From contig JACPFF010000015.1 of NCBI GenBank assembly GCA_016183065.1, positions 1 to 64,000 on the forward strand: 64,000 nucleotides of DNA, in the 5' to 3' direction. Shown piece by piece: positions 3,069 through 50,372 of the stretch. The first letter of the stretch is position 1, and the number at the start of each line of letters is the position of its first letter. The translations under genes were made by a program, and so were the position numbers. A model generated the notes under the pieces. That model had not been told where the DNA came from, searched no databases, and worked only from the letters and a program-made list of their open reading frames with translations. This DNA comes from Deltaproteobacteria bacterium (GTDB lineage Bacteria > UBA10199 > GCA-002796325 > JACPFF01).

Positions 3069-3169
3069 TATGGTGCGTTAACTTTTCCTGAGCACATGCG
3101 TCATACGGTACCATAAGTATTTCTAACGTTTCATGAGCACATTTGTACTCATGAAACGTTAGAAATACT
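3069..3169. repeat. Dispersed hairpin repeat, copy 1
   Basis: A 101-base element whose right half is a perfect 22-base-pair hairpin (arms 3116-3137 and 3148-3169, loop CACATTTGTA). Its first 63 bases match a second copy at 47547 onward at 59 positions, and a third hairpin-only copy lies at 50258-50310. It sits in the long leader of the sucA operon. It could act as a terminator for the upstream gene, an RNA-processing site, or be a miniature mobile element. No run of T follows the stem, which argues against a classical intrinsic terminator. Confidence 0.85.
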
Positions 3170-3203
3170 ATATCTCGCCGCCTTGCTCTCCACGCGCCGT
3201 GTA

Positions 3204-3236: not shown

Positions 3237-6029
3237 ATGCCGCGTATTGAGTTACTCCCATATCTGGGGAACGCCGGGATCGAGGCCCTGGATAGCCTCT
3301 ATCAGCACTATCTCGAGAATCCCGCTGCCGTGCCGAATGAATGGCGGCGTTTTTTTGAGGGGTTTCAGTTTGCCCAATCATCGGCCAATGGCCACACGGT
3401 CTCGGCCCGCGCCGCCGAACCTGGGACGACGGTTGGGGAGCGCGAAATCGCGGTCCTCAACCTGATCAATGCCTATCGCATGCGTGGGCACCTCTTTACA
3501 CGGACAAATCCGGTGAGGGAGCGGCGGCACTATCGTCCCACGCTGGACCTGGAAAATTTTGGACTCTCGGACCAAGACCTCGAGACGGTCTATGCCTCGG
3601 GGTGCGAATTGGGGCTCGGCCCCACGACGTTGCGGGAGATTCTGGAGTGCCTGCAGCAGACCTACTGCCGTTCCATTGGCGCGGAATATCAATATATCCA
3701 CGATCCGGAGACCGTGCGGTGGTGGCAGACGACGATGGAGTCGACGCGAAACAGGCCGCGTTTTTCGCGGGATGCACAGCACCAGATATTGCGAAAATTG
3801 GCGGAAGCGGTCCTTCTGGAGCACTTTCTCCATGGCAAGTTTGTGGGACAGAAACGGTTTTCACTGGAAGGCGTGGAGGCGGCGATTCCGGCACTTGATG
3901 CCTTGATTGATCGCGGATCGGCGTTGGGCGTTCAGGAGTTTGTCATCGGTATGGCGCATCGCGGGCGACTCAATGTGTTGGCCAATATTTTGGGGAAATC
4001 CTTTGAGCAGATTGTTGCCGAGTTCAAGGGAAATGGTTTCGAAGATACCTCCTTTGACGGGGACGTGAAATACCACCTCGGCTATTGCAACCACTACACC
4101 CTCCCGAATGGGCGCCGCGTGCAGCTGACGCTGCTCCCCAATCCCTCCCATCTGGAGGCGGTGGATCCCGTGGTCGAGGGGACCGTGCGGGCCAGACTCG
4201 ATCACGGATATGGCGGGAACTCCGATGCGATCTGTCCGGTGTTGTTGCATGGAGATGCCTCGATTGCCGGCCAGGGGGTGGTCTATGAGGTCTTGCAGAT
4301 GTCCCAACTCGACGGCTATGGCACCGGGGGGACGATCCATCTCGTCTTGAATAACCAGCTCGGCTTTACGACCCATTACCTCGACGGGCGGTCGAGCACG
4401 TACTGCACGGATGTCGCCAAGGTGACGCGGTCCCCCGTGTTGCATGTCAATGCCGACGACGTGGAGGCTGTGGTCTTTACCATGCACCTGGCGATTGCCT
4501 ATCGGCAAAAATTTCACCGGGATGTCTTTATTGACCTGCTCGGCTACCGCAAACACGGTCACAACGAAGGGGATGAACCGCGATTTACGCAACCGGTCCT
4601 CTACAAGCTGATCGAGCAACATGCGCATCCGCTGGCGATCTATCGGGAGCAGTTGCAGCAGGGGGGGGAGTGGACGGCGGCCGATCTCGATGCCGTGGAA
4701 CAGGCATGTCGCGAGCGGCTGGATCGGGCATTTGCCAGGGCAAAAGAGACGCCAACCGTGGGGCCCCACGGACTCACGCCCGTGGCACCCTGGGAGGAGG
4801 CTTCGCCTGAGCACGACGCCCCCCGGGCCGAAGAAGGGTGGGAGGGGATGCGGACCCCCACTGATGCGGAGGTTGCCCAGTCACCGGATACGGGCGTTGC
4901 CGATGGCCGGCTCCGCGCGCTCGGTGAGGCGATGTTGACGATTCCGCCTGACGTGACGCCATTCCGGAAGATTGAAAAACTCTTTGAAGATCGCCGCCGC
5001 CTGCTGCACGACGGGGAGCGGCTCGATTGGGCCCTGGGCGAATGGCTGGCCTATGCCACGCTCCTCGACGAAGGGATTGGCGTGCGCATCTCCGGGCAGG
5101 ATTGTGAACGTGGCACGTTTTCGCATCGTCACGCCGTCATCACGGTGAAGGATTCGGAAGAAGAGTTTGTGCCGCTCCGGCATTTGCATGAGGGACAGGG
5201 GCCCTTTGAAATTTACAACTCGCCATTGTCCGAATATGGTGTCCTGGGGTTCGAATATGGCTATGCCCTGGCGAGCCCGCAGACACTGGTCATCTGGGAG
5301 GCCCAGTTCGGGGACTTCATGAATGGGGCGCAGATCATCATCGATCAGTATCTCGCCGCCGCGGAAACAAAGTGGCAGCGGATGAATGGCCTCGTCCTCT
5401 TTTTGCCGCACGGCCACGAGGGGCAGGGGCCGGAGCATTCCTCGGCGCGGGTGGAACGGTTTCTGACGCTCTGCGCGGACAACTACCTGCAGGTGGCTAA
5501 TTGCACCACGCCGGCGAATTTTTTCCATCTGTTGCGTCGACAGATGCACCGTGATTTTCGGCGGCCACTCGTGGTGTTTACGCCGAAGAGCCTGCTGCGA
5601 CATCCGCAATGCGTCAGTCCGTTGGATGATTTTGCCCGTGGCGGTTTTCGCGAGGTGATTGACGATGCGACGGACGATCCGCGGCGGATTCGGCGGGTCC
5701 TCTGTTGCTCAGGGAAGATCTATTATGAATTGTTGGCCTATCGGACGGAGTATGCGCGGCATGAGGTCGCGATCGTGCGGTTGGAACAGCTCTCTCCCTT
5801 TCCCCGGTGCCAACTCGACCGACTCGTGCAGCGTTACCAGGCCGCCGAGACGTGGTCGTGGGTGCAGGAAGAACCGATCAACATGGGGGCCGCCGCATTC
5901 CTGCAGCGCGAGTGGGGGGGGATGCCGCTCACCATGGTGGCGCGGCGAGGTCGTGCCAGTCCGGCCACCGGATTCCCTTCGCATCATGCCCAGCAACAAA
6001 TAGCCGTGATTCAGGAGGCGTTTACGTAA
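3237..6029 (+). CDS. sucA: 2-oxoglutarate dehydrogenase E1 component
   Basis: A 930-residue thiamine-diphosphate enzyme that decarboxylates 2-oxoglutarate and passes the succinyl group to the lipoyl domain of SucB. The N-terminus ([20 protein letters not shown]) is the standard SucA E2-binding leader. Other hallmarks are the [11 protein letters not shown] core, the [19 protein letters not shown] diphosphate-binding segment, and the C-terminal transketolase part with [27 protein letters not shown] and [16 protein letters not shown]. Length is close to E. coli SucA. Odd: residues about 507-527, in the linker between the two halves, are encoded by a palindromic repeat also found in the Tad region. 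An AAGGA ribosome-binding site precedes the ATG. It is the first gene of sucA-sucB-lpd. Confidence 0.97.
4757..4817 (+). repeat. Palindromic repeat inserted in frame inside sucA
   Basis: These 61 bases match the reverse complement of 27834-27894 at 59 positions. They contain a GC-rich palindrome (GTGGGGCCCCAC) and a hairpin (CCACGG...CCGTGG). In sucA they are read in frame as [20 protein letters not shown] with no stop, in a linker that varies in length among SucA proteins, so the enzyme probably tolerates them. Confidence 0.9.
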
Positions 6030-6040
6030 AGGAGTCGCGT

Positions 6041-7231
6041 ATGTCCATTGCAATGAAGGCCCCGAGTCCGGGAGAATCGATCACCGAGGTGCAAATTGCC
6101 AAGTGGTTCAAGGCCGATGGGGATCCGGTGGCACAAGACGAACCACTCTGCGAAATCGAGTCGGACAAGGCCACGCTGGAAATCACCGCCGAAGCCGCAG
6201 GAGAAGTGCACATTGTCGCCGCAGAAGGGGAGATTGTTCCGGTGGGAGCCGTGATCTGCACGATCGATCCGTCAGCAGCCGGCGCCACACCGGTGAAAAG
6301 AGCGGAGATATCGTCCAGAGACGAAACGCGGAAGGCGGAGGATGAATCACTGGGGGTCGCCTCTCCGGCCGCGGGGAAAATTTTGCGCGAAAAAGAGATC
6401 ATGCCGGCATCAGTCTCCGGGACCGGTCGTGGAGGACGGATCACCAAGACCGATGCGCTGGCCGCGCAACCGCTGGACACACCGGAGGTCCGCCCGCAGG
6501 AAATGCCCGCAGAGCCCCCGGCGGATCCGCATCGACCGGTCCGGCGGGTTCCTCTCTCCATGCTCCGGCGGAGTCTCGCGAAACGGATGGTGGCGGTCAA
6601 AAACGAGACCGCGATGCTGACCACGTTCAATGAAGTCGATATGAGCGCGGTGATGGCGCTGCGCAGGGCCACACAGGACGCATTTCAGCAAAAATTTCAC
6701 GTCAAACTCGGGTTGCTCTCCTTTTTTGCGCGGGCGGCGGTGCAGGCCCTCCTGGCGTTCCCTGCCGTGAATGCGCGGATTGATGAGGGAACGATCGTCT
6801 ATCAGGACTTCATCGACATTGGCATTGCTGTCAGTGCCCCGAAAGGCTTGATGGTGCCGGTGTTGCACAATGTCGAGCGGATGCATGCCGGCGAGATCGA
6901 ACAGCAGATTCGCCACTTGGCGGAACGTGCCCAGGCCGGTCAGCTGGGCATTGCGGAGATGAGCGGGGGAACCTTTACGATTACCAACGGCGGGGTATTT
7001 GGATCCATGCTCTCGACCCCACTCATCAACCCACCGCAGAGTGCGATCCTCGGCATGCACAATATTGTCGAGCGCCCCGTGGCACTCGATGGGAAAGTGG
7101 TCATTCGACCGATCATGTACGTGGCCCTCTCCTATGACCACCGGATGATCGACGGCCGCGAGTCGGTCGGATTTCTCAAACGTGTCAAAGAGGAGATTGA
7201 GAGCCCGGAGCGCTTGTTGACGGGTCTGTAA
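6041..7231 (+). CDS. sucB: Dihydrolipoamide succinyltransferase, E2 of the 2-oxoglutarate dehydrogenase complex
   Basis: A 396-residue protein in three parts. A lipoyl domain (residues 1-75) carries the lipoylated Lys43 in [10 protein letters not shown] peripheral-subunit-binding domain lies around 106-140 ([14 protein letters not shown] to [10 protein letters not shown]). The C-terminal acyltransferase domain ends in the active-site motif [15 protein letters not shown]. It transfers succinyl from SucA to CoA. The ATG at 6041 has an AAAGGAG ribosome-binding site 11 bases after the sucA stop. The linker between the first two domains is short and charged rather than Ala/Pro-rich. SucB is favoured over a pyruvate E2 because it directly follows sucA. 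Confidence 0.96.
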
Positions 7232-7251: not shown

Positions 7252-8649
<1,398 letters not shown>

Positions 8650-18707: not shown

Positions 18708-19579
18708 CGCACCGGTGCGGATATGTCGCGCTCATCGGTCTCCCCAATGTCGGCAAGTCCTCCGTGATGAATGCCCTCATCGGCGAAGAGGTGGCCATTG
18801 TCACACCGATGCCACAGACAACGCGCCAGCGGATTGCCGGGATCGCCTCCACACCGGAGTCCCAGGTCATTTTTCTCGATACACCGGGCGTGCATCTCTC
18901 AGACCGGGCCATCAACCAGGCCATGGTGGCCACGACCGAAGCCGTGCTGCGCGAGGCGGATGGCCGTGTCCTCGTGGTCGATGCGTCCCAGGTGGCGTCG
19001 AGCGTGCGACTCCCACCGGCATTCTTGTCACACCGATGGACCTGCATCGTCCTGAACAAAATCGATCTGCTCAGCGAGCGTGTGTGCACGCAGCTCCAAC
19101 AGCAACTGGGGAGGGAATTCGCGACCATGATCTCTCCCGTCTCGGCCGTGCGCGGTGACGGGATCGATTCCCTCCGGCACCATCTCGTGGCTGCGCTGCC
19201 GGAAGGGCCACCGCTTTTTCCCACTGATATCTACACCGAACACTCCGTCCGTTTTCTCGTCGCGGAATGGATCCGCAAGGCGGTCATTGAACACCTGGCC
19301 GAGGAGCTCCCGCATGCCATTGCCGTGGAGATCGAGGCCTTTCATGAAGACGCACCGTGCACACGGATCGAGGCCACCATCATTGTTGAACGGGAATCGC
19401 AAAAGGGGATGGTGATTGGCCGTGGAGGGCGCATGATTCGCGCGATCGGCACCACCGCGCGGCAGTATATGACCGCCTGCGTGGGGACGCACGTCTATCT
19501 AGGGTTGCGCGTCCGCGTCGAACGCCAGTGGCGCACACGGCCAGAACAGCTCCGCCGTTTCGGATTCATCCGTTCATAA
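18704..19579 (+). CDS. era: GTPase Era
   Basis: A 291-residue GTPase that binds the 3' end of 16S rRNA during 30S assembly. G1 is ALIGLPNVGKSS, G3 FLDTPGVH, G4 LNKIDL, and the C-terminal KH domain contains RIEATIIVERESQKGMVIGRGG. Start at the ATG overlapping the rnc stop; an upstream GTG at 18698 is also in frame. Its stop overlaps the end of the convergent pseudouridine synthase gene by six bases. Confidence 0.97.
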   Translation: MTHRCGYVALIGLPNVGKSSVMNALIGEEVAIVTPMPQTTRQRIAGIASTPESQVIFLDTPGVHLSDRAINQAMVATTEAVLREADGRVLVVDASQVASSVRLPPAFLSHRWTCIVLNKIDLLSERVCTQLQQQLGREFATMISPVSAVRGDGIDSLRHHLVAALPEGPPLFPTDIYTEHSVRFLVAEWIRKAVIEHLAEELPHAIAVEIEAFHEDAPCTRIEATIIVERESQKGMVIGRGGRMIRAIGTTARQYMTACVGTHVYLGLRVRVERQWRTRPEQLRRFGFIRS

Positions 19580-20437
19580 GCCATCATTACAGGGGTTCAC
19601 GTCCCCTGCAGCGAAGCCTCCGGGGACTTCCTCGTCCACCCGCTTTGCGGGAAAAGATACCTGCAGGAGCGTGGCGGGGATCCGTAGGGCGGTGCAGGGA
19701 TCGACAAACGTGGCGGGAAGTGGTGCCGTGACGAGCACCGGTGCCCCGGTGGCCGGCGAACAAAATCCGAGCTGCCAGGCATGGAGGAGGGGAGTGGCGG
19801 TGGGGTCGTCGGACGGATGAGGGCCGCCATAGAGCGGATCACCCACGATCGGATGACCGGCGTGGGCCAGGTGGACGCGAATCTGGTGTCGCACCCCCGT
19901 CGTGATCGTTACACAGAGGAGCGAATAGGGCGATGATCGCTGTTGATCGGGGTAGACGTGGCCACAGGTCGTGATCTCGGTCGCTGCGGCCTGCGGGTGC
20001 CCACGACACGCGATGTGGCGGGCTGGAACCACGAGCATGCGGTCCCATTTCCGTGGATGATGTGCAATCGGCCAGTGCCAGGTAGCGGTCGCTGGCGTCA
20101 TCCCATGGACGAGGGCTGCATACCGTTTGATGATCGTGCCGGCACGAAAGGCTGCACGCAGGGCATCATAGGTGGAGCGGTCCTTGGCGAGGAGCAGGGC
20201 CCCGGAGGTCCCATTATCGAGCCGATGGACCGGAAGGGAAGGGGCACACAGCGTGGCCACGGCCGGAAGTGTGTGTCGCGGATGGGCCAGTGTGGCAAGG
20301 CCCGCAGGCTTTGCCACGACGACCACGGAGTCATCTTCATAGAGCGTTGGAAGGTCCACGGGCCATGATATGTTATAAAATTGAGTAAAATCAATAAAAT
20401 AGATTGTGCTTTCCCCCGGGGTTTTTTTCGCAACCAT
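19574..20437 (-). CDS. RluA-family pseudouridine synthase with a repeat-encoded C-terminus
   Basis: A 287-residue RluA-type synthase without an S4 domain. It shows YEDDSVVVVAKPAGLATLAHP, the catalytic Asp in LPVHRLDNGTSGALLLAK, and TITTGVRHQIRVHLAHAGHPIVGDPLYG. It isomerises uridine in rRNA or tRNA; the target cannot be told. Start ATG 20437 has GGAG eight bases upstream, but the family fold only begins about 20 residues later. The last 20-odd residues (VDEEVPGGFAAGDVNPCND and neighbours) are encoded by a palindromic repeat related to those in the Tad operon, so the original stop was probably replaced. Confidence 0.88.
   Translation of the reverse strand: MVAKKTPGESTIYFIDFTQFYNISWPVDLPTLYEDDSVVVVAKPAGLATLAHPRHTLPAVATLCAPSLPVHRLDNGTSGALLLAKDRSTYDALRAAFRAGTIIKRYAALVHGMTPATATWHWPIAHHPRKWDRMLVVPARHIACRGHPQAAATEITTCGHVYPDQQRSSPYSLLCVTITTGVRHQIRVHLAHAGHPIVGDPLYGGPHPSDDPTATPLLHAWQLGFCSPATGAPVLVTAPLPATFVDPCTALRIPATLLQVSFPAKRVDEEVPGGFAAGDVNPCNDGL
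19590..19651. repeat. Palindromic repeat at the 3' end of the pseudouridine synthase gene
   Basis: The hairpin CAGGGG-TTCACGT-CCCCTG (19590-19608) is followed by GCGAAGCCTCC and a 28-base block (19624-19651) that matches 33851-33878 in the Tad operon at 25 of 28 bases. It has the same modules (GGGG-TCACGT-CCCC hairpin, CTCGTCCACC segment) as the other family members, here inside a coding frame on the minus strand. Confidence 0.8.
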
Positions 20438-20668
20438 TTCAGTGCTCCGCCGAATATTATTCTGTAAATGGAGTGCCGAGGCGAAAGGCGACCGTGTGAT
20501 TGAGCGCGCAGGAGATCTCCGGAGAGGAGCAACCGTCATGTCAGACCGCTCTGTACGACTCCCCTCTCAATGTCCTCTGGAAGGCGCCCATCGGGTGCAA
20601 CAGCGCGTATCTCTCGCATCAGAGCAGCACCGGATCAGTAGGACACTGTCACGGTGTGAGGTGCCCCG

Positions 20669-26336: not shown

Positions 26337-26646
26337 CCGTCGCGGGACGGCCCTGACGGAATGCCTGCTGTTGCTCCCCGGCCTGCTCCTGCTGTGCGGG
26401 ATTGCCCTGGGCTCTGCGCTCTTTTCGCTGGAGAAAATGCGTGCCATCTATGCCCACATGATGGCCGTCCGCGCCGGGAGTGTGGCGCAAACGCCGGACG
26501 TCGCGATGGAACACGCTGCCACACTGGCGATCGCCATTGCGCCGACCGTGGGGACCTGGCAACGGGTCCGGCCGCCGTGGCCCGTGCGGCATCTGCCGCA
26601 ACCGTGGGGTGGCAGTGCCACCGGGGGAGATAACCCCATTCCATGA
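26323..26646 (+). CDS. TadE-like pseudopilin
   Basis: About 107 residues starting from GTG at 26323, which overlaps the previous gene. The N-terminus NNRRGTALTECLLLLPGLLL is the TadE/TadF type: basic residues, a Gly, a conserved Glu five residues later, and a single long hydrophobic helix. The rest is a small extracytoplasmic domain. TadE-family proteins are processed by the prepilin peptidase and are needed for Flp pilus assembly. An earlier ATG at 26281 would overlap the upstream gene more and is less likely. Confidence 0.65.
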   Translation: MATNNRRGTALTECLLLLPGLLLLCGIALGSALFSLEKMRAIYAHMMAVRAGSVAQTPDVAMEHAATLAIAIAPTVGTWQRVRPPWPVRHLPQPWGGSATGGDNPIP

Positions 26647-27593
26647 CCACGATCCGCGGACAAGTGGCCGTCCTCATCCTGTTGCTCCTGCCGTTGGCGA
26701 TGCTGGTCGTCGCCCTCGTGGCCGATGTCGGCCTTGTCATTGTCACCAAAATGCGGCTGCAAGTGACCGCAGACCGGGCCGCGTATGCCGCGGCCCAATC
26801 ACTGGCAACCTCGCTGGCATCGCTGGCCACACAGAATGCCGAGATTCACCAGGAATTTACCGAGCAGGTGACCGAGCTCGCGGTGTCGCAACAACAGAAC
26901 GCCGCAGCCGGACGCGCCCGCATTGCCGCCCGCCAGGCCACGATCGACACAATGCGCACGGCCATGGATGCTACGGTCGAGCGCGGGTACGTGCGCGCCT
27001 GTGAAGCGGCATTGGGAGTGGTCGAAGCGGAGGCGCCATGGGCCCGGATGATCCCGCTCTATGGCCGGACGCGTGTCGTCGGACCGGCGGCCGAACAGCG
27101 CTGCCATGGTGGTGCGCCACTCTTTTCATTTTATCAGGATCACCTCTTTCCCGATCAATTTCCGTCACTATCGTACACATATCCTGCTGCCGGTACTGGA
27201 TGGGATGACCCGGCCCAGATCGAGGAGGCTGCGGCCCCCCTCTTGAGTTATCGGGCAAAGGGGCCCGGCGGGGGGCAGCAGGTGGCCTTCGCCCTCCGGC
27301 TGGAGAGCCCGCTCCCCGGTGGTGCCATGGGAGGCCTCTTGAGATCGAATGAGGAGACTGCGGAGCCAACGAATCCGTGGCTTTCGGCGGCGGCCGCCGC
27401 ACAACCCTTTGGAGGATCGATCGCGGATTTTGATCCTGCGTACGACGCGACGCTGGTCCCGCTCGACCTCTTGCGCGATGAAGACGCGGGGTATCAAGGC
27501 CTCTGGTACACCGACCCTGATGACATCGGGTCAGAGAACGTCCCTCCCGATGATGACACATGGATGCGCGATGATGGCTGGTATCTCCACTAG
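26643..27593 (+). CDS. TadG-like pilus assembly protein
   Basis: A 316-residue protein with the TadG/TadE N-terminal pattern: RGQVAVLILLLLPLAMLVVALVADVGLV, a membrane span followed by QVTADRAAYAAAQSLATS, typical of the Tad_N (TadG) domain whose AADAAALA segment it mirrors. The large C-terminal part is extracytoplasmic, rich in Pro, Asp and Trp, with no recognised von Willebrand MIDAS motif. It starts in ATGA overlap with the TadE-like gene. Just after the stop lies the sequence AGCAGGCGGTTGAAAAA, close to a repeat common downstream of genes in some bacteria. Confidence 0.65.
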   Translation: MTTIRGQVAVLILLLLPLAMLVVALVADVGLVIVTKMRLQVTADRAAYAAAQSLATSLASLATQNAEIHQEFTEQVTELAVSQQQNAAAGRARIAARQATIDTMRTAMDATVERGYVRACEAALGVVEAEAPWARMIPLYGRTRVVGPAAEQRCHGGAPLFSFYQDHLFPDQFPSLSYTYPAAGTGWDDPAQIEEAAAPLLSYRAKGPGGGQQVAFALRLESPLPGGAMGGLLRSNEETAEPTNPWLSAAAAAQPFGGSIADFDPAYDATLVPLDLLRDEDAGYQGLWYTDPDDIGSENVPPDDDTWMRDDGWYLH

Positions 27594-27729
27594 CAGGCGG
27601 TTGAAAAACCCCGTTCAGATCACCTTTTTGGGCTGGCTGAGGATCTGTGGGCAGAGGAAGGGGCGTGACCGCCGTGTGCAGGGAGGCACTCGCGGTCGCG
27701 CGTGGCGCTGTGGCATTCACGGCATTATC

Positions 27730-27894
27730 GGAGGGGCTCACGTCGCCCCCTCCAGCGGCAAAGCCGCTGGAGCCTCCCCTTCAACGCCGCGGTGCGGCTG
27801 GGTCGTGGGGCCCCGGACGTCAGTCCGGAGGGTGTCGTGCTCAGGCGAAGCCTCCTCCCAAGGTGCCACGGGCGTGAGCCCGTGGGGCCCCACG
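27730..27894. repeat. Composite palindromic repeat in the Tad operon
   Basis: A tandem set of hairpins: GGAGGGG-loop-CCCCCTCC (27730-27753), CCAGCGGC-AAA-GCCGCTGG (27752-27770), further GC-rich palindromes, and a 61-base block (27834-27894) that is the reverse complement of the repeat inside sucA with two differences. The first 21 bases are identical to 33777-33797. The whole 27594-27909 gap holds only these repeats and no convincing gene. It may split or attenuate the operon transcript. Confidence 0.85.
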
Positions 27895-27909: not shown

Positions 27910-28014
27910 ATGGAGCTCCTTGCCCTGACCGTGGGGATCTCGTTCTTTCTCCTCGTCGTCACACGACTGGTGGCGCTCACGGCCACACGTCTCTTTGAGG
28001 TCGTCGGATGGTAA
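27910..28014 (+). CDS. Possible 34-residue membrane peptide
   Basis: ATG at 27910, with GGGAG about seven bases upstream, opens a 34-codon frame that starts MELLALTVGISFFLLVV, one membrane span with a positively charged continuation, ending FEVVGW. The stop overlaps the cpaB start. The frame is open further upstream through the palindromic repeats, so the gene could once have been longer and lost its start to the repeat insertion. No family recognised. Confidence 0.4.
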   Translation: MELLALTVGISFFLLVVTRLVALTATRLFEVVGW

Positions 28015-28814
28015 CACAATGGTCATGGCGTCATCGGGGGCTCAGGGCCATGGGGATGAGTGGGGTGGTTGCGCTCGCAGCCTTCATCTATTTTCTCCGC
28101 GTCGAGCGCGAGATTGTCAGTCGTGGGACGCCCATTGCACTCGTGATAGCTGCCACAGACCTCCCGGCCCAGATTGCGCTGACACCGGCGATGCTGGCCC
28201 TCCGTGAAATCCCGAGACAGTTTGTCCCGCCGGGGGCTCTGCAAGATCCCGAAGAGGCCATCGGGATGGTCACCGTCACGACCATGCGCGCCGGAGAGAT
28301 CCTCACGGTGACGCGTGTGGCTCCGGTGACCGATCCCCCGATCCTCTCGGCAACGATCGGCGGAGGCCGGCGTGCGATTGCCATTCCGGTCGATGACGCG
28401 CATGCCGCAGGCGGGCTGATTCGTCCCGGAGACCGGGTCGATCTCCTGGCGCGTTTTGACGTCGGAATGACGGGGATGACGCAACGCCATCTCGTCACCT
28501 TGTTGCAGGGCCTTCGAGTCCTGGCTGTGGGAAGCGCGATGGCCGATCTGTACGAGGAGCGACTGCCGTCCAAACCGCCAGCTCAGCGCCACGGGTTGTC
28601 CGGCACACCTGCGCAGCGTGCTGCGACGATCACGGTCGAGGTCTCGCGCGAAGAGGCACAATCCGCGCTCTTTGCCCTCGCCAATGGCGAGGTCTTTCTC
28701 AGTCTCCTGCCGGGCCTGGAGGTGCAGAGAGCTCCTCCCATTGCCCCCGCCACGGCCGCGTCAGTCACGGGGCTGACCTCGCTCGTGCCACGGAGGGAAT
28801 ATCGTGGGCGATAG
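28008..28814 (+). CDS. cpaB: Flp pilus assembly protein CpaB/RcpC
   Basis: A 268-residue protein with an N-terminal membrane span (VVALAAFIYFLRVE). It is followed by a SAF domain (VIAATDLPAQIALTPAML, REIPRQFVPPGAL) and the CpaB core ISATIGGGRRAIAIPVDD-like segment, AAGGLIRPGDRVDLLARFD and LLQGLRVLAVG. RcpC/CpaB links the inner membrane to the secretin in Tad pili. The start overlaps the preceding small gene, and the GTG of the secretin gene overlaps its last 11 bases. The length is typical. Confidence 0.88.
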   Translation: MVTQWSWRHRGLRAMGMSGVVALAAFIYFLRVEREIVSRGTPIALVIAATDLPAQIALTPAMLALREIPRQFVPPGALQDPEEAIGMVTVTTMRAGEILTVTRVAPVTDPPILSATIGGGRRAIAIPVDDAHAAGGLIRPGDRVDLLARFDVGMTGMTQRHLVTLLQGLRVLAVGSAMADLYEERLPSKPPAQRHGLSGTPAQRAATITVEVSREEAQSALFALANGEVFLSLLPGLEVQRAPPIAPATAASVTGLTSLVPRREYRGR

Positions 28815-32285: not shown

Positions 32286-32860
32286 TGTCATGGTATGCCC
32301 GGTGGCGACAGCGGTGTCGGCAACAGCGGGCCCAGGCGCAGTTGCCCATGGCCCTCCATCTGTTGGGGAGTGCCTTGCAGGCGGGCGACACACTCTCGCA
32401 GGCCATGGCGGTGGTGGCGCTCGAGGCGCCATGGCCATTGCGCGAGGGCTTCCAGGACTGGGTCCGGGAAGAGGCCCTTGGGGTCCCCCTGGCGTCCCGG
32501 CTGGAGCGTCTGGCGGAACGGATCGGCGGGCGGGACCTCTTGCTGATCCGCTTTACCCTTCTTCTCCTCCATGATGCCGGCGGAAATCTCGTGGCCGCCT
32601 GCGACCGGTGGATTGCGGCCATCGATGCGCGAGTCCGGCTGCGGGACAAGGTCCACCTCGCCACCATCCAGGGCCGGATCAGCGGTGGCCTGATTGCGAT
32701 GATCCCGCTCGGTCTCCTGGGGGCCATGGCCCTGTGGATGCCGGCATTCGTGCAGCCACTGGTCACGACGTGGCCCGGGCGTGTGGCGGGCATTGGTGGC
32801 GTGCTGCTGAATGCCTGCGGTCTCTGGTGGATGCTGCGATGGTCGCGGGTCGATGTATGA
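32282..32860 (+). CDS. tadB: Tad pilus platform protein TadB-like
   Basis: A 192-residue inner-membrane protein of the T2SS-F family. The cytoplasmic part (LPMALHLLGSALQAGDTLSQAM; REEALGVPLASRLERLAER; HDAGGNLVAACDR) is typical, followed by two C-terminal spans (GLIAMIPLGLLGAMALWMPAF and a last helix). It is shorter than usual TadB (about 300 residues) because the N-terminal spans are missing. ATGA overlaps join it to both neighbours. With TadC it forms the platform on which the ATPase acts. Confidence 0.8.
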   Translation: MMSWYARWRQRCRQQRAQAQLPMALHLLGSALQAGDTLSQAMAVVALEAPWPLREGFQDWVREEALGVPLASRLERLAERIGGRDLLLIRFTLLLLHDAGGNLVAACDRWIAAIDARVRLRDKVHLATIQGRISGGLIAMIPLGLLGAMALWMPAFVQPLVTTWPGRVAGIGGVLLNACGLWWMLRWSRVDV

Positions 32861-33765
32861 GCGGACTCCTCTCCATCCTGGTGTGGTGTGTGATCCATGA
32901 CGCAATGGGCTGGTGGGAGACGCGTTCCCCCCGTCGATTGGATCTCCGCGGCACCATGGAGGACCCCCCGTGGGTGACCCGGTCGCTCCTCCTGCGGCTG
33001 ACCCTCCCTATGGCCCGGTGCAGCGCCGAGGCCGTGCGTCGTGGGGCGCAGCGCAGTCGATGGCGGTGGTGTCGGCAGGGGGTGCTGGTGTCCGGGGGGA
33101 CGGGGACCTATGCCGTCCCCTGTGGCGACTGGCTGACGATGACCATGCAGAGCCTGATCCTTGCCGGCTGCGGTCTGCTCGTCGGTTCCTGCGCACCGGC
33201 GGCCACGCACGTGGTGATGCTCTGCGGTGCCGGCAGTGGCGCGCTCCTGCCGTGGCATGCCATGCGGCACGGATTGCGCAGATGGCGCGCAGAGATCCTC
33301 CGCGACTGCGAAGAGATGGTGGAACTCTTTGCGCTGGCGGTCGAGGCGGGCCTTGAGATCCCGGTGGCACTGGCGCGGCTCGTAGAGGTCATGCCGGCAT
33401 CGCCCTGGCGGAACCTGATGGGGCAATTGCACTGTGAATTGCGGCTCGGCCAAGCGCCGACCAAGGCATGGCAGACCTTGGCAACCGCCGTGGCACTGCC
33501 GCCGGTGGATGCGTTTGTCACGTTGCTGCGCAGTGCCGACTCTCGCGGCACGCCGATCGCCACGCTCCTCCATCGCGAGGTCGAACGGATGCACGCTGCG
33601 CGCTATCGGCGGGCCGAAGTGGCGGGCATTCTGGCGGGACAGAAAATATTACTGCCGATGATCCTCTGCATTCTCCCCGGGTATTTCCTCCTCGTCTTGA
33701 GTGGCATTATTTTGCACCTGTTTGGTGCCGGCCTGACCCAGGGGCTGGGGGGATGGTTGTGGTGA
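32857..33765 (+). CDS. tadC: Tad pilus platform protein TadC-like
   Basis: A 302-residue T2SS-F family membrane protein. N-terminal cytoplasmic region, two spans (MTMQSLILAGCGLLVGSC and the following helix), the core ILRDCEEMVELFALAVEAGLEIPVAL and LLRSADSRGTPIATLLHREVE, then C-terminal spans (ILLPMILCILPGYFLLVLSGI). The start at 32857 overlaps the tadB stop. Ends in GTGA overlap with the PAS-protein gene, showing translation coupling beyond the standard tad set. Confidence 0.82.
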   Translation: MSGLLSILVWCVIHDAMGWWETRSPRRLDLRGTMEDPPWVTRSLLLRLTLPMARCSAEAVRRGAQRSRWRWCRQGVLVSGGTGTYAVPCGDWLTMTMQSLILAGCGLLVGSCAPAATHVVMLCGAGSGALLPWHAMRHGLRRWRAEILRDCEEMVELFALAVEAGLEIPVALARLVEVMPASPWRNLMGQLHCELRLGQAPTKAWQTLATAVALPPVDAFVTLLRSADSRGTPIATLLHREVERMHAARYRRAEVAGILAGQKILLPMILCILPGYFLLVLSGIILHLFGAGLTQGLGGWLW

Positions 33766-34904
33766 ATGACACTATTGGAGGGGCTCACGTCGCCCCCCCA
33801 ACGGGCCAAGCCCGTTGGGTCCCCCCCTCTCGCGCGCGGTGCGCGCTGGGGGACGTCCTCGTCCACCTGCTTCGCGGGTGCCCGGACTCGGTCGTCGCAA
33901 CACCCCCGTGGGCCAGGTGGCGGCTCCCCCTCCTCCATGGCTGGCAGGTGGTGGAGGCGTGGGGGCATCGCGCGGGCTTCTGGATGATACCGCTCCTGCA
34001 AGGCGTGCTGGCCCTCGGGCTGCTGGGATGGGGGAGCGTGCAGTCCCATCACGATGTCACCTGGACAACGCATCTCGCCGACCAGTATCGAGCCCATGCC
34101 GTGCAGGCGATCTTTTCCGCACTGACCCGTCATGACGGGGAGTGGGATGTTGGGGCGGTGGTCCCCTGGCGGCAATGGTGTGCCGAGATCGGGGTCGTTG
34201 CATTGCGCGTGGAGGATGCGCGCGGAGAGACGGTCGGACGATGCGGGCCCTCGGAGGCACACGAGGGGATGGGTGCATGGTTGGCCACCCGTGCCGCACC
34301 ATTGCCGGATGATGCGCCGTGGATCGACCATGGCGAGTGCCAGCGCGCGCGACAGTGTTATGCCATGCACAGCTCACGCGCACACCTCGCCATCATGTTC
34401 GATCCCGTGGTCATGCGACAGAGTATGGGGTGCCCCGCATCGTTGTGGTGGGTCTTTCTCCTCAGTGCGCTCTGGGGGATCGGGTCGATCGGTCGTGGTT
34501 GCTCCGGTTGGCGGACCATCCATCGTCAACGTCGCGCGGCCTATCGCGAGGGTGCCCTGGCCGGGATGTTTGTCCAGCCGATCTGTCTGCAACAGGCCAT
34601 TGACAGTCTCCCGGTTGGTATCGCCATTTTTGACGGGGCCATGCGGCTCCGGATCATCAATGCAGCGCTGCGGGTCACGGGGCCTCCCGGGCAAGCGACT
34701 GATGAGGTCTCCATCCATCCGGTCCATCTCCTCGATTTCGCGCGCACCCGCGGATGGGAAGCGACGGCGCAGGCATTGGTGCGGACATTGTCGGGAGGGG
34801 AGCATTTGAGCGCCCACCAGCACGGGATGACGCTGACCCGATTGGCGACCCGCGAGGGGACATCGGGGTATTGGTTCGTCGTCCATCAGGAGGAGGCACC
34901 ATGA
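33762..34904 (+). CDS. Membrane-anchored PAS-domain protein without an output domain
   Basis: About 380 residues from a GTG overlapping the tadC stop. Order: a 40-50 residue N-terminus encoded by palindromic repeat, a first span (MIPLLQGVLALGLLGWGSV), an extracytoplasmic domain of about 130 residues with three Cys, a second span (SLWWVFLLSALWGIGSIG), then a cytoplasmic PAS-like domain (QAIDSLPVGIAIFDGAMRLR, IINAALRVTG). This is the layout of a sensor-kinase input half, but no kinase, GGDEF or HAMP-linked output follows. It might sense an external signal and act on the pilus machinery by contact. Its place inside the tad operon is unusual. Confidence 0.6.
   Translation: MNDTIGGAHVAPPTGQARWVPPSRARCALGDVLVHLLRGCPDSVVATPPWARWRLPLLHGWQVVEAWGHRAGFWMIPLLQGVLALGLLGWGSVQSHHDVTWTTHLADQYRAHAVQAIFSALTRHDGEWDVGAVVPWRQWCAEIGVVALRVEDARGETVGRCGPSEAHEGMGAWLATRAAPLPDDAPWIDHGECQRARQCYAMHSSRAHLAIMFDPVVMRQSMGCPASLWWVFLLSALWGIGSIGRGCSGWRTIHRQRRAAYREGALAGMFVQPICLQQAIDSLPVGIAIFDGAMRLRIINAALRVTGPPGQATDEVSIHPVHLLDFARTRGWEATAQALVRTLSGGEHLSAHQHGMTLTRLATREGTSGYWFVVHQEEAP
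33777..33878. repeat. Composite palindromic repeat at the start of the PAS-protein gene
   Basis: The first 21 bases are identical to 27730-27750. They are followed by the hairpin CAACGGG-CCA-AGCCCGTTG, a GCGCGC palindrome, and a block at 33851-33878 matching 19624-19651 at 25 of 28 bases. The repeat lies in frame at the 5' end of the coding sequence and is read as TIGGAHVAPPTGQARWVPPS and following residues. Confidence 0.85.
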
Positions 34905-47546: not shown

Positions 47547-47648
47547 TATGGTGCGTTCACTTTTCCTGAGTACATGCGTCTTATGGTACCATAAGTATTT
47601 CTAACGTTTAACGAGCACGTTTGTACTCATTCAAACGTTGAAATACTT
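47547..47648. repeat. Dispersed hairpin repeat, copy 2
   Basis: A 102-base element. The first 63 bases match copy 1 (3069 onward) at 59 positions, and the hairpin (arms 47593-47615 and 47626-47648) is imperfect. It also contains a perfect 16-base palindrome CTTATGGTACCATAAG at 47580-47595. It lies between the convergent nosY and malic enzyme genes and reaches into the malic enzyme stop codon, so it may serve as a two-way terminator. Confidence 0.85.
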
Positions 47649-49360
47649 TAGGGCTCGTACCGGACCGGAAGGTACTCCGAGACCCACATGGCCGATTTCA
47701 CGCGGGCCTCGAGGTCATCGAGCATACCTGGCTCAGCCAAGCCCTCGGTAACGCCCTGTCGGATCACCGCACACGCAATGGCATGGGAGCAATCGCGGAT
47801 CATGGTCAGCGGCGGGAAGAGCGAGCCCATCTGGAGACGGTGCTCGGTGACCAGTGATGCCAACGTCTTCGACGCGGCAAAAAACATCCCGTCGCTAATG
47901 CGACGGATCTCGGCCGTCGTGACCCCGAGTCCCACGCCGGGAAAAATGTAGGCATTATTGCATTGGCCAATCTCGTGCCGTATCCCCTGGCAGGTCACCG
48001 GCGCGAAGGGACTCCCTGTGGCAATGATCGCACGACCATCGGACCAGCAGAGTGCGTCTTCCGGGGTACATTCTTCCTTCGAGGTCGGATTGGAGAGGGG
48101 GAAAATCATTGGCCTGGACACATGCCCAGCCATGGACCGGATGATCGACTCAGTAAAAAGCGACGGGGCACCAGAACAGCCGATCAAGATCGTGGGGTGC
48201 ACATTGGCAATCGTTTCCTCAAGCGTAATACGGTCACGGTTGCAACAGGCAAAATGCGCAATGTCACCGGCCGCCCGTGCATGTTTTTTCTTGAAGGTAT
48301 CGAGTGGCGTCCGGGTTTCCACCACCAGTCCCTGACTGTCCGTGGTCCAGATGCGATCCCTGGCCTTGGCGAGCGACAGACCTGCATCATGCATGGCGGC
48401 AATCAGGAGATCGGCAATCCCTTGCGCAGAGGCGCCAGCACCGGCAATGACGATGTGCTGATCAGACAGTGCCTCACCAGTGATACGGAGTCCCGAGAAG
48501 ATGCCGGCAAGCAGTACCGCTGCCGTCCCCTGAATGTCGTCGTTAAAACTGCAGATCTGCGTCCGATATCGATGGAGTTGCCTCATCGCATTTTCTTTCA
48601 GGAGATCCTCCCATTGGAGCAGGATATGGGGGAAGACTTTCTGCACGGCGGCGACAAAAGCGTCGATGAAGGCCTGATACTGCGCGCCCCGGATACGGTT
48701 GTGCCGCAAACCGAGATAGAGTGGGTCTTGCAGCCGGTGGGCATTATTGGTCCCGACATCGAGCAAGATCGGCAACGTGGAATACGGCGGAATTGCGGCA
48801 CAGAGGGTGTAGAGGCAGAGCTTGCCGATCGAGATCCCCATGCCGCCCGCGCCTTGATCGCCGAGGCCGAGAATCCGTTCGCCGTCCGTCACGACCATAA
48901 TCGTCGGTCGTTCGCAGGGGGTGTTCCGTAAAATGCGTTCGATCTGGTCGCGATGATCGTAACTGATATAGAGACCCTGCGGCTTGCGGTAGATATGGGA
49001 AAACTTGCGGCATGCCTCGCCGACGGTTGGGGTGTAGACAATCGGCATCATCTCTTCGATATGTTCTTCCAATAATCGATAAAAGAGTGTTGCATTGCGA
49101 TCGTGCAGGCTTTTCAGGTAGATATATTTTTCCAGGGGATCAGACTTGGCCAGATAACTTTCGTAGGTCCGTTCCAATTGTTGCGAGATCGTGCACACGG
49201 CCGGTGGCAGAAGCCCGTGCAGATCGAGAGCATCGCGTTCGTCTTCGGTAAAAGCCGGCCCCTTGTTGGTGAAGGGGTTCATCAACAAATCTTTCCCCTT
49301 CGTATCGACGCTTTGATAGGGACTCCGAGTCGAGGCGTCCCTTTTGATGGTCCAACGCAT
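47648..49360 (-). CDS. maeA: NAD-dependent malic enzyme
   Basis: A 570-residue malic enzyme of the long (MaeA/SfcA) class that converts malate to pyruvate and CO2. Signatures are LHDRNATLFYRLLEEHIEEM, PIVYTPTVGEACRKFS, VVTDGERILGLGDQGAGGMGI (substrate site with conserved Arg/Asp), LDVGTNN, FNDDIQGTAAVLLAGI and the nucleotide-binding GAGASAQGIADLL. AAGGAG six bases upstream supports the start at 49360. A monocistronic gene; links the TCA cycle to pyruvate. Confidence 0.94.
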   Translation of the reverse strand: MRWTIKRDASTRSPYQSVDTKGKDLLMNPFTNKGPAFTEDERDALDLHGLLPPAVCTISQQLERTYESYLAKSDPLEKYIYLKSLHDRNATLFYRLLEEHIEEMMPIVYTPTVGEACRKFSHIYRKPQGLYISYDHRDQIERILRNTPCERPTIMVVTDGERILGLGDQGAGGMGISIGKLCLYTLCAAIPPYSTLPILLDVGTNNAHRLQDPLYLGLRHNRIRGAQYQAFIDAFVAAVQKVFPHILLQWEDLLKENAMRQLHRYRTQICSFNDDIQGTAAVLLAGIFSGLRITGEALSDQHIVIAGAGASAQGIADLLIAAMHDAGLSLAKARDRIWTTDSQGLVVETRTPLDTFKKKHARAAGDIAHFACCNRDRITLEETIANVHPTILIGCSGAPSLFTESIIRSMAGHVSRPMIFPLSNPTSKEECTPEDALCWSDGRAIIATGSPFAPVTCQGIRHEIGQCNNAYIFPGVGLGVTTAEIRRISDGMFFAASKTLASLVTEHRLQMGSLFPPLTMIRDCSHAIACAVIRQGVTEGLAEPGMLDDLEARVKSAMWVSEYLPVRYEP

Positions 49361-50257: not shown

Positions 50258-50310
50258 AGTATTTCACCGTTTCATGAGTCCACATCTGCTCATGAAACGT
50301 GAGAGATACT
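50258..50310. repeat. Dispersed hairpin repeat, copy 3 (hairpin only)
   Basis: Arms 50258-50278 and 50289-50310 share CGTTTCATGAG / CTCATGAAACG and the outer AGTAT / ATACT with copy 1; the left 47 bases of the full element are missing. It lies 60 bases upstream of the FNR-type regulator start, in its promoter or leader region, between divergent genes. Confidence 0.75.
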
Positions 50311-50372
50311 GATGGTAATGCGAGGTGCGTGAACTCACGAAAAGGGAATGCACCATAACTTGGAGTCGATGC

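Follow-up and report, generated by a model that had tools for sequence, protein, structure and literature searches.

Rickettsia palindromic elements (RPEs) are short palindromic repeats of ~150 bp, many of which lie in frame inside unrelated protein genes and for which no mobiliser is known (PMC10969869; PMC3733652). One end of RPEs is reported to bear a CGTC tag (PMC3733652), and a 2024 review regarded a similar mechanism as conceivable in other prokaryotes (PMC10969869). REPs within genes are also known (PMC3733652), and MITEs such as ERIC, RU-1/2 and NEMIS sometimes form fused reading frames (PMC10969869). In the open-licence papers that we searched, we found no report of the repeat family that we describe here.

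We analyzed a stretch of 64,000 nt (the window) that, judging from its gene content and its relatives, appears to belong to a class different from that of Rickettsia. In the window, sucA (positions 3237–6029, plus strand) encodes a 2-oxoglutarate dehydrogenase E1 of 930 aa in which Pfam recognizes E1_dh, Transket_pyr and OxoGdeHyase_C; an acyltransferase gene (5807–7231) lies 3′ of it and is followed by a dihydrolipoyl-dehydrogenase-like gene (7252–8649), both assigned by Pfam. A preliminary description of this DNA had proposed that sucA carries a block of 61 bases that returns, on the opposite strand, in a Tad operon, and we found that positions 4757–4817 are indeed the reverse complement of positions 27834–27894 at 59 of 61 bases, with mismatches at 4772 (A/G) and 4790 (C/T). 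Within the block, a 25-base core matches the window at exactly two places, as compared to 0 expected from shuffles. The claim that sucA is read through the block also holds: the segment is in frame, contains no stop and sits between domains. When we matched sucA to the repeat family defined below, the match ran from 4758 to ~4826 on the plus strand (69 bp, with 4 mismatches to the consensus over 72 bp), indicating that the sucA copy is a truncated left-end fragment that retains only the left 69 bp of the element. It encodes approximately residues 507–530, between the E1 and transketolase-like domains, and in an AlphaFold2 model the element-encoded linker residues 507–529 have pLDDT values below 50. 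We compared the protein to SucA relatives, a check that had been suggested at the outset, and found that the segment is missing in 10 of them. When we scanned named genomes with SucA, all matches came from other phyla, at identities of 44–57%.

The second member of the repeat pair is a full-length, 170-nt element on the minus strand (about 27724–27893) between a TadE/G-like gene (26643–27593) and cpaB (28008–28814). Pfam finds Tad genes on both sides (the TadE/G-like gene, then RcpC/CpaB, secretin, T2SSE and T2SSF), in agreement with the location first given for this copy. The window contains two further partial elements, both on the minus strand. The first (33771–33907) consists of the right-hand modules and the right end and lies directly 3′ of a T2SSF-like gene (32608–33765); its antisense frame is open into a downstream, putatively coding ORF (33468–34904). 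The second (19591–19651) forms the 3′ end of a pseudouridine-synthase-like gene (19574–20539, minus strand). There is also a second, A+T-richer palindromic family in the window (CGTTTCATGAGCACA...TGTACTCATGAAACG; 3069–3172, 47547–47650 and 50268–50357), one copy of which lies directly upstream of sucA; a relative of this repeat is found elsewhere in the genome (locus L114, around 2120–2200).

To see how far the family extends, we searched the whole genome, as the preliminary description had recommended, and found many more copies, both intergenic and in frame within genes. With a 106-bp left part as query we obtained 48 matches at E≤1 (about 41 strong ones), and with a 242-bp form 65 matches at E≤0.01; in the stretches fetched from the genome, these merge into 68 places that hold the whole element or parts of it and total 11.7 kb. 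In the sense direction, the element starts with GTGGGGCCCCACGGG and ends with GAGCCCCTCCAATAGT, and its common lengths are 170, 242 and 227 nt. G+C-rich hairpins follow one another in a chain, and the element is modular: it has an 89-bp left module, a middle that is exchangeable or extended, and a constant right end. The 61-base block is thus real, but its extent had been underestimated, since it is a fragment of a composite of 170–242 bp that contains a 76-nt core. The 170-nt copies have a mean identity of 95%, suggesting that amplification of the composite is recent; in this genome, an ancestral core would have gained the 89-bp left module and the optional middle modules. Full-length elements do not have more open frames than dinucleotide shuffles (2.15 vs 2.44), indicating that the composite as a whole is not specially open and that only particular frames are. 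The lengths of 20 of 26 composites preserve the frame; however, only three length variants underlie this count, which thus does not serve as independent evidence.

Several copies have neighbors or parts that deserve description in their own right. Another hairpin repeat, located mostly at contig ends in one relative (G028; L031–L035), includes the left module's first 32 bases, so that this module may have a separate history. In the genome of the window, two element copies (L016, C13:74211; L011, C27:58761) are enclosed by the two arms of an inverted repeat that is older than they are, as though hairpins were targets, too, and at L114 (1465–1660; C8:65784–65984) a fragment of an IS200-type transposase gene is cut off by an element copy.

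In relatives, we found only a shorter unit, without the composite. When we aligned 19 copies of this core from four genomes, RNAalifold gave a structure of 76 nt with three hairpins and 19 pairs in which 99.7% of cells are paired; a hairpin structure that we had drawn by hand was misplaced and was dropped in favor of the RNAalifold structure. Changes on both sides are seen in five pairs, against a mean of 2.0 for shuffles, and sliding the structure gives no number near this one. All five covarying pairs are in hairpins one and two; the third hairpin hardly varies. The core is flanked on the left by A-rich, AACC-like sequence and its right end is TRTAATAG. When we searched with a covariance model, 22 of the 46 class genomes contained the core (the genomes compared are drafts), with several to many copies in most of these, and we did not find it in about 245 genomes outside the class, a set that may not include Rickettsia. 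The core had no match in phage or plasmid records, its pattern had none in viral contigs, and the exact 29-nt left-end pattern had none in genome contigs or viral contigs.

Conservation of the core across families of the class, together with the covariation of its pairs, could mean that the element has been domesticated, with selection maintaining the inserted peptide or the mRNA hairpins because they regulate the host protein. However, the proteins hit are unrelated, as are the positions of the insertions within them, and the corresponding genes of relatives lack the inserts; compensated changes in the stems, moreover, alter the peptide freely. Domestication is thus an improbable explanation. 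Instead, we conclude with high confidence that a non-autonomous mobile repeat, which forms hairpins, has left a copy of itself in sucA, and that copies in frame within protein genes are tolerated and most likely translated. That the insertion is mobile and tolerated by proteins, as had been suspected from the window alone, is supported by the SucA relatives without the residues and by multicopy dispersal; we infer movement from the lineage-specific positions of insertions. New copies of the element would land at many places in the genome, insertions that are out of frame or bear stops in needed genes would be removed by selection, and the remaining mRNA segments would be translated and stay in the protein as a flexible loop rich in Pro, Gly and Ala.

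To quantify how intragenic copies relate to the reading frame, we examined 117 core copies, nearly all of them from relatives across the class; these are the best-scoring copies, since scoring was limited to the 16 top candidates of each genome. On each strand, we took the longest frame that is open up to each side of the element, with the best frame chosen independently for each side, and we then considered the cases with at least 100 open codons on both sides. Among the 42 cases that pass this cut-off, 26 are in phase without a stop, 15 are out of phase and 1 has a stop. When we read the 16 exceptions singly, two were truly in frame (in a proton-translocating subunit and in RsmA) and the remaining 14 were gene borders or shadow frames. 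Counted in this way, there are 28 deep intragenic copies, all of which keep the frame and contain no stop, and none breaks the frame; under a chance of 1/3, the p value is about 4e-14, a descriptive figure given that we reassigned two of the cases after visual inspection. The in-frame, stop-free property of RPEs is found here as well. Most intragenic copies are read in one sense frame, and this usual frame is open in 90% of intragenic copies as compared to 65% of the others.

By Pfam, the hosts include BipA, Mfd, LeuRS, PheT, MetG, PriA, RNase R, RseP, NadB, NadC, RsmA and PBP1A and, with shorter flanks, a cysteine desulfurase, YbeY and an RF-1-like protein. In LeuRS (residues 538/564) and PheT (904/931), the two sides of the insertion are contiguous or one codon apart in relatives, which align over the site with 24–26 residues missing. 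In one relative (G024), a gene for an RseP-like site-2 protease (L336, 1090–2679) carries the core twice, once in each orientation, and both copies are in frame. Because these are draft genomes and a related repeat is found at contig ends in G028, one could ask whether a repeat was wrongly joined into sucA and the other genes during assembly. We find this hardly credible: for every insertion that we tested, the sequences on either side align to a single gene in the correct order and frame; many independent genomes show the pattern again; and misjoins would break the frame.

The inserted stretch could also be removed before the protein is finished, whether by RNA splicing, by ribosomal bypassing (as for mitochondrial byp elements or T4 gene 60) or by protein splicing. 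The byp elements of yeast mitochondria are, like the element here, short hairpin DNA inserted in protein genes; the ribosome skips them and the frame need not be kept, whereas deep intragenic copies of our element always keep the frame. Two observations are in keeping with removal: the core folds into three stable hairpins, and there are copies near active-site motifs, where removal would be convenient (the P-loop of MurF and, in LeuRS, upstream of the SMSKSKG motif). However, removal would make frame and stops irrelevant, and the constraints on both that we see in the deep copies, together with the excess of open sense frames within genes, argue against splicing or bypassing. In addition, only two tRNAs in the window reach the gathering score in Rfam 15, such that the element is no known RNA family, and Pfam finds no intein domain at element sites. 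Taken together, these data make removal of the segment very improbable, and translation in frame remains the reading that we prefer.

In the genome of the window, we found the same pattern in other proteins. In MurF, an insert of 57 residues directly follows GITGSNGKSTTKEMIA, just past the P-loop; the host sequence runs to aa 137/138 and resumes at about 191–198, and relatives are contiguous there. The B12-dependent ribonucleotide reductase NrdJ is a 1686-aa open frame with two in-frame copies. The first is inside an intein, where aa 807 and then 890/891 are nearly contiguous in two relatives that have the same intein (G019 and G024); the second is in the linker before the C-terminal domain, a site that is uninterrupted by comparison with 19 relatives. 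The NrdJ intein (L062, 568–5625; contig C3:9567–14624) has a LAGLIDADG_3 domain, so that at this locus an element lies within an intein within an enzyme gene, a mobile element nested in a mobile element. Further open insertions are found in a LysM/SLT protein, in CinA near the C terminus, in an alpha/beta hydrolase, in an SLT protein after the signal peptide and in an ABC ATPase near the start; the last two are weaker cases because the left side is short.

As described above for the phase of intragenic copies, the element resembles RPEs in being a short palindromic repeat that is inserted in frame and without stops into unrelated genes, with a preferred frame. In contrast to RPEs, it is found across what appears to be another bacterial class, it is a G+C-rich chain of three or more hairpins, its hosts include MurF, LeuRS, PheT, PriA and MetG, and its composites reach 242 bp and more. 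We looked for the CGTC tag; in the core, this motif is confined to hairpin C and is read on the reverse strand, whereas the element's ends are AGCC... and ...TAATAG. The published description of the ends and host of RPEs therefore sets the element apart, and we do not file it as an RPE because the tag is missing at its ends and we found it only in what appears to be another class. Thus, the likeness to RPEs that had been proposed stands for the way of working and falls for family membership.

The element also shares features with GTAG REPs and their RAYTs, since REPs are dispersed extragenic hairpins that are sometimes intragenic (PMC3733652) and there is a RAYT-like gene in this genome. However, the element has no GTAG at its ends, it is 76–242 bp long as compared to 20–40 bp, and its presence does not track Y1 genes across the class: a Y1 transposase is found in 18 of 22 element-bearing and 20 of 24 element-free genomes (Fisher p=1), Y1 genes rarely adjoin copies (2 of 31 loci), and a genome that is 98% complete (G016) has element copies and no Y1 gene. 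We rejected a RAYT as the mobiliser, as neither the presence nor the position of Y1 genes is associated with the element. We likewise rejected reverse transcriptase, which shows no association across the 46 genomes of the class (7 of 22 element-bearing vs 8 of 24 element-free genomes; Fisher p=1). The RAYT-like transposase gene (L113, 1270–2090; contig C2) is flanked by other inverted repeats, GGGTACGTCATAC / GTATGACGTACCC, and not by the element; these repeats also adjoin the element copy at C27:58761.

Like the MITEs ERIC, RU-1/2 and NEMIS, the element is non-autonomous, structured and within a range of 70–300 bp (PMC10969869); it differs from them in that the core has no terminal inverted repeats and copies in this genome have no direct target-site duplications above shuffles. 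We suppose that the repeat moves as folded hairpin DNA and that its enzyme is provided in trans; since copies lack long terminal inverted repeats and hardly ever show target duplications, our first and tentative guess is a single-strand transposition mechanism. Alternatively, the element, still mobile and tolerated, could spread by recombination or template switching between hairpins and not by a transposition-like reaction with its own enzyme, an explanation that differs from the one we favor only in the origin of new copies. The elements are mosaics of modules, no transposase tracks them, and direct duplications of 18–45 bp flank 4 of 44 sampled copies, nearly all of which are from relatives, all consistent with such a process. 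Constant element boundaries, with the AACC-like left flank and the TRTAATAG right end, do not fit it as well; finding the same boundaries from copy to copy points to a specific joining reaction, and we consider spread by recombination rather unlikely. The duplication-flanked copies are L256, L257, L267 and L301, at least three of which are at the 3′ ends of genes or tRNAs; at L256, where the 3′ end of a protein-coding sequence is duplicated, most differences between the two copies are at positions that look synonymous.

In-frame palindromic inserts have so far been treated as a peculiarity of Rickettsia, and here we see them in genomes from across a bacterial class, where well-understood enzymes carry dozens of natural examples. 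It is conceivable, although we would not yet favor it, that the repeat is a class-wide, long-lived selfish hairpin element adapted to translation, for which protein genes, essential ones included, are a normal habitat and whose mover is an enzyme of a kind not previously connected with such repeats. These insertions make testable the open question of how selfish DNA can add segments to proteins without destroying them, and the element copies are natural maps of insertion-tolerant sites in enzymes like MurF, LeuRS, PheT and NrdJ. In working core enzymes, selfish DNA appears to turn into a harmless loop.
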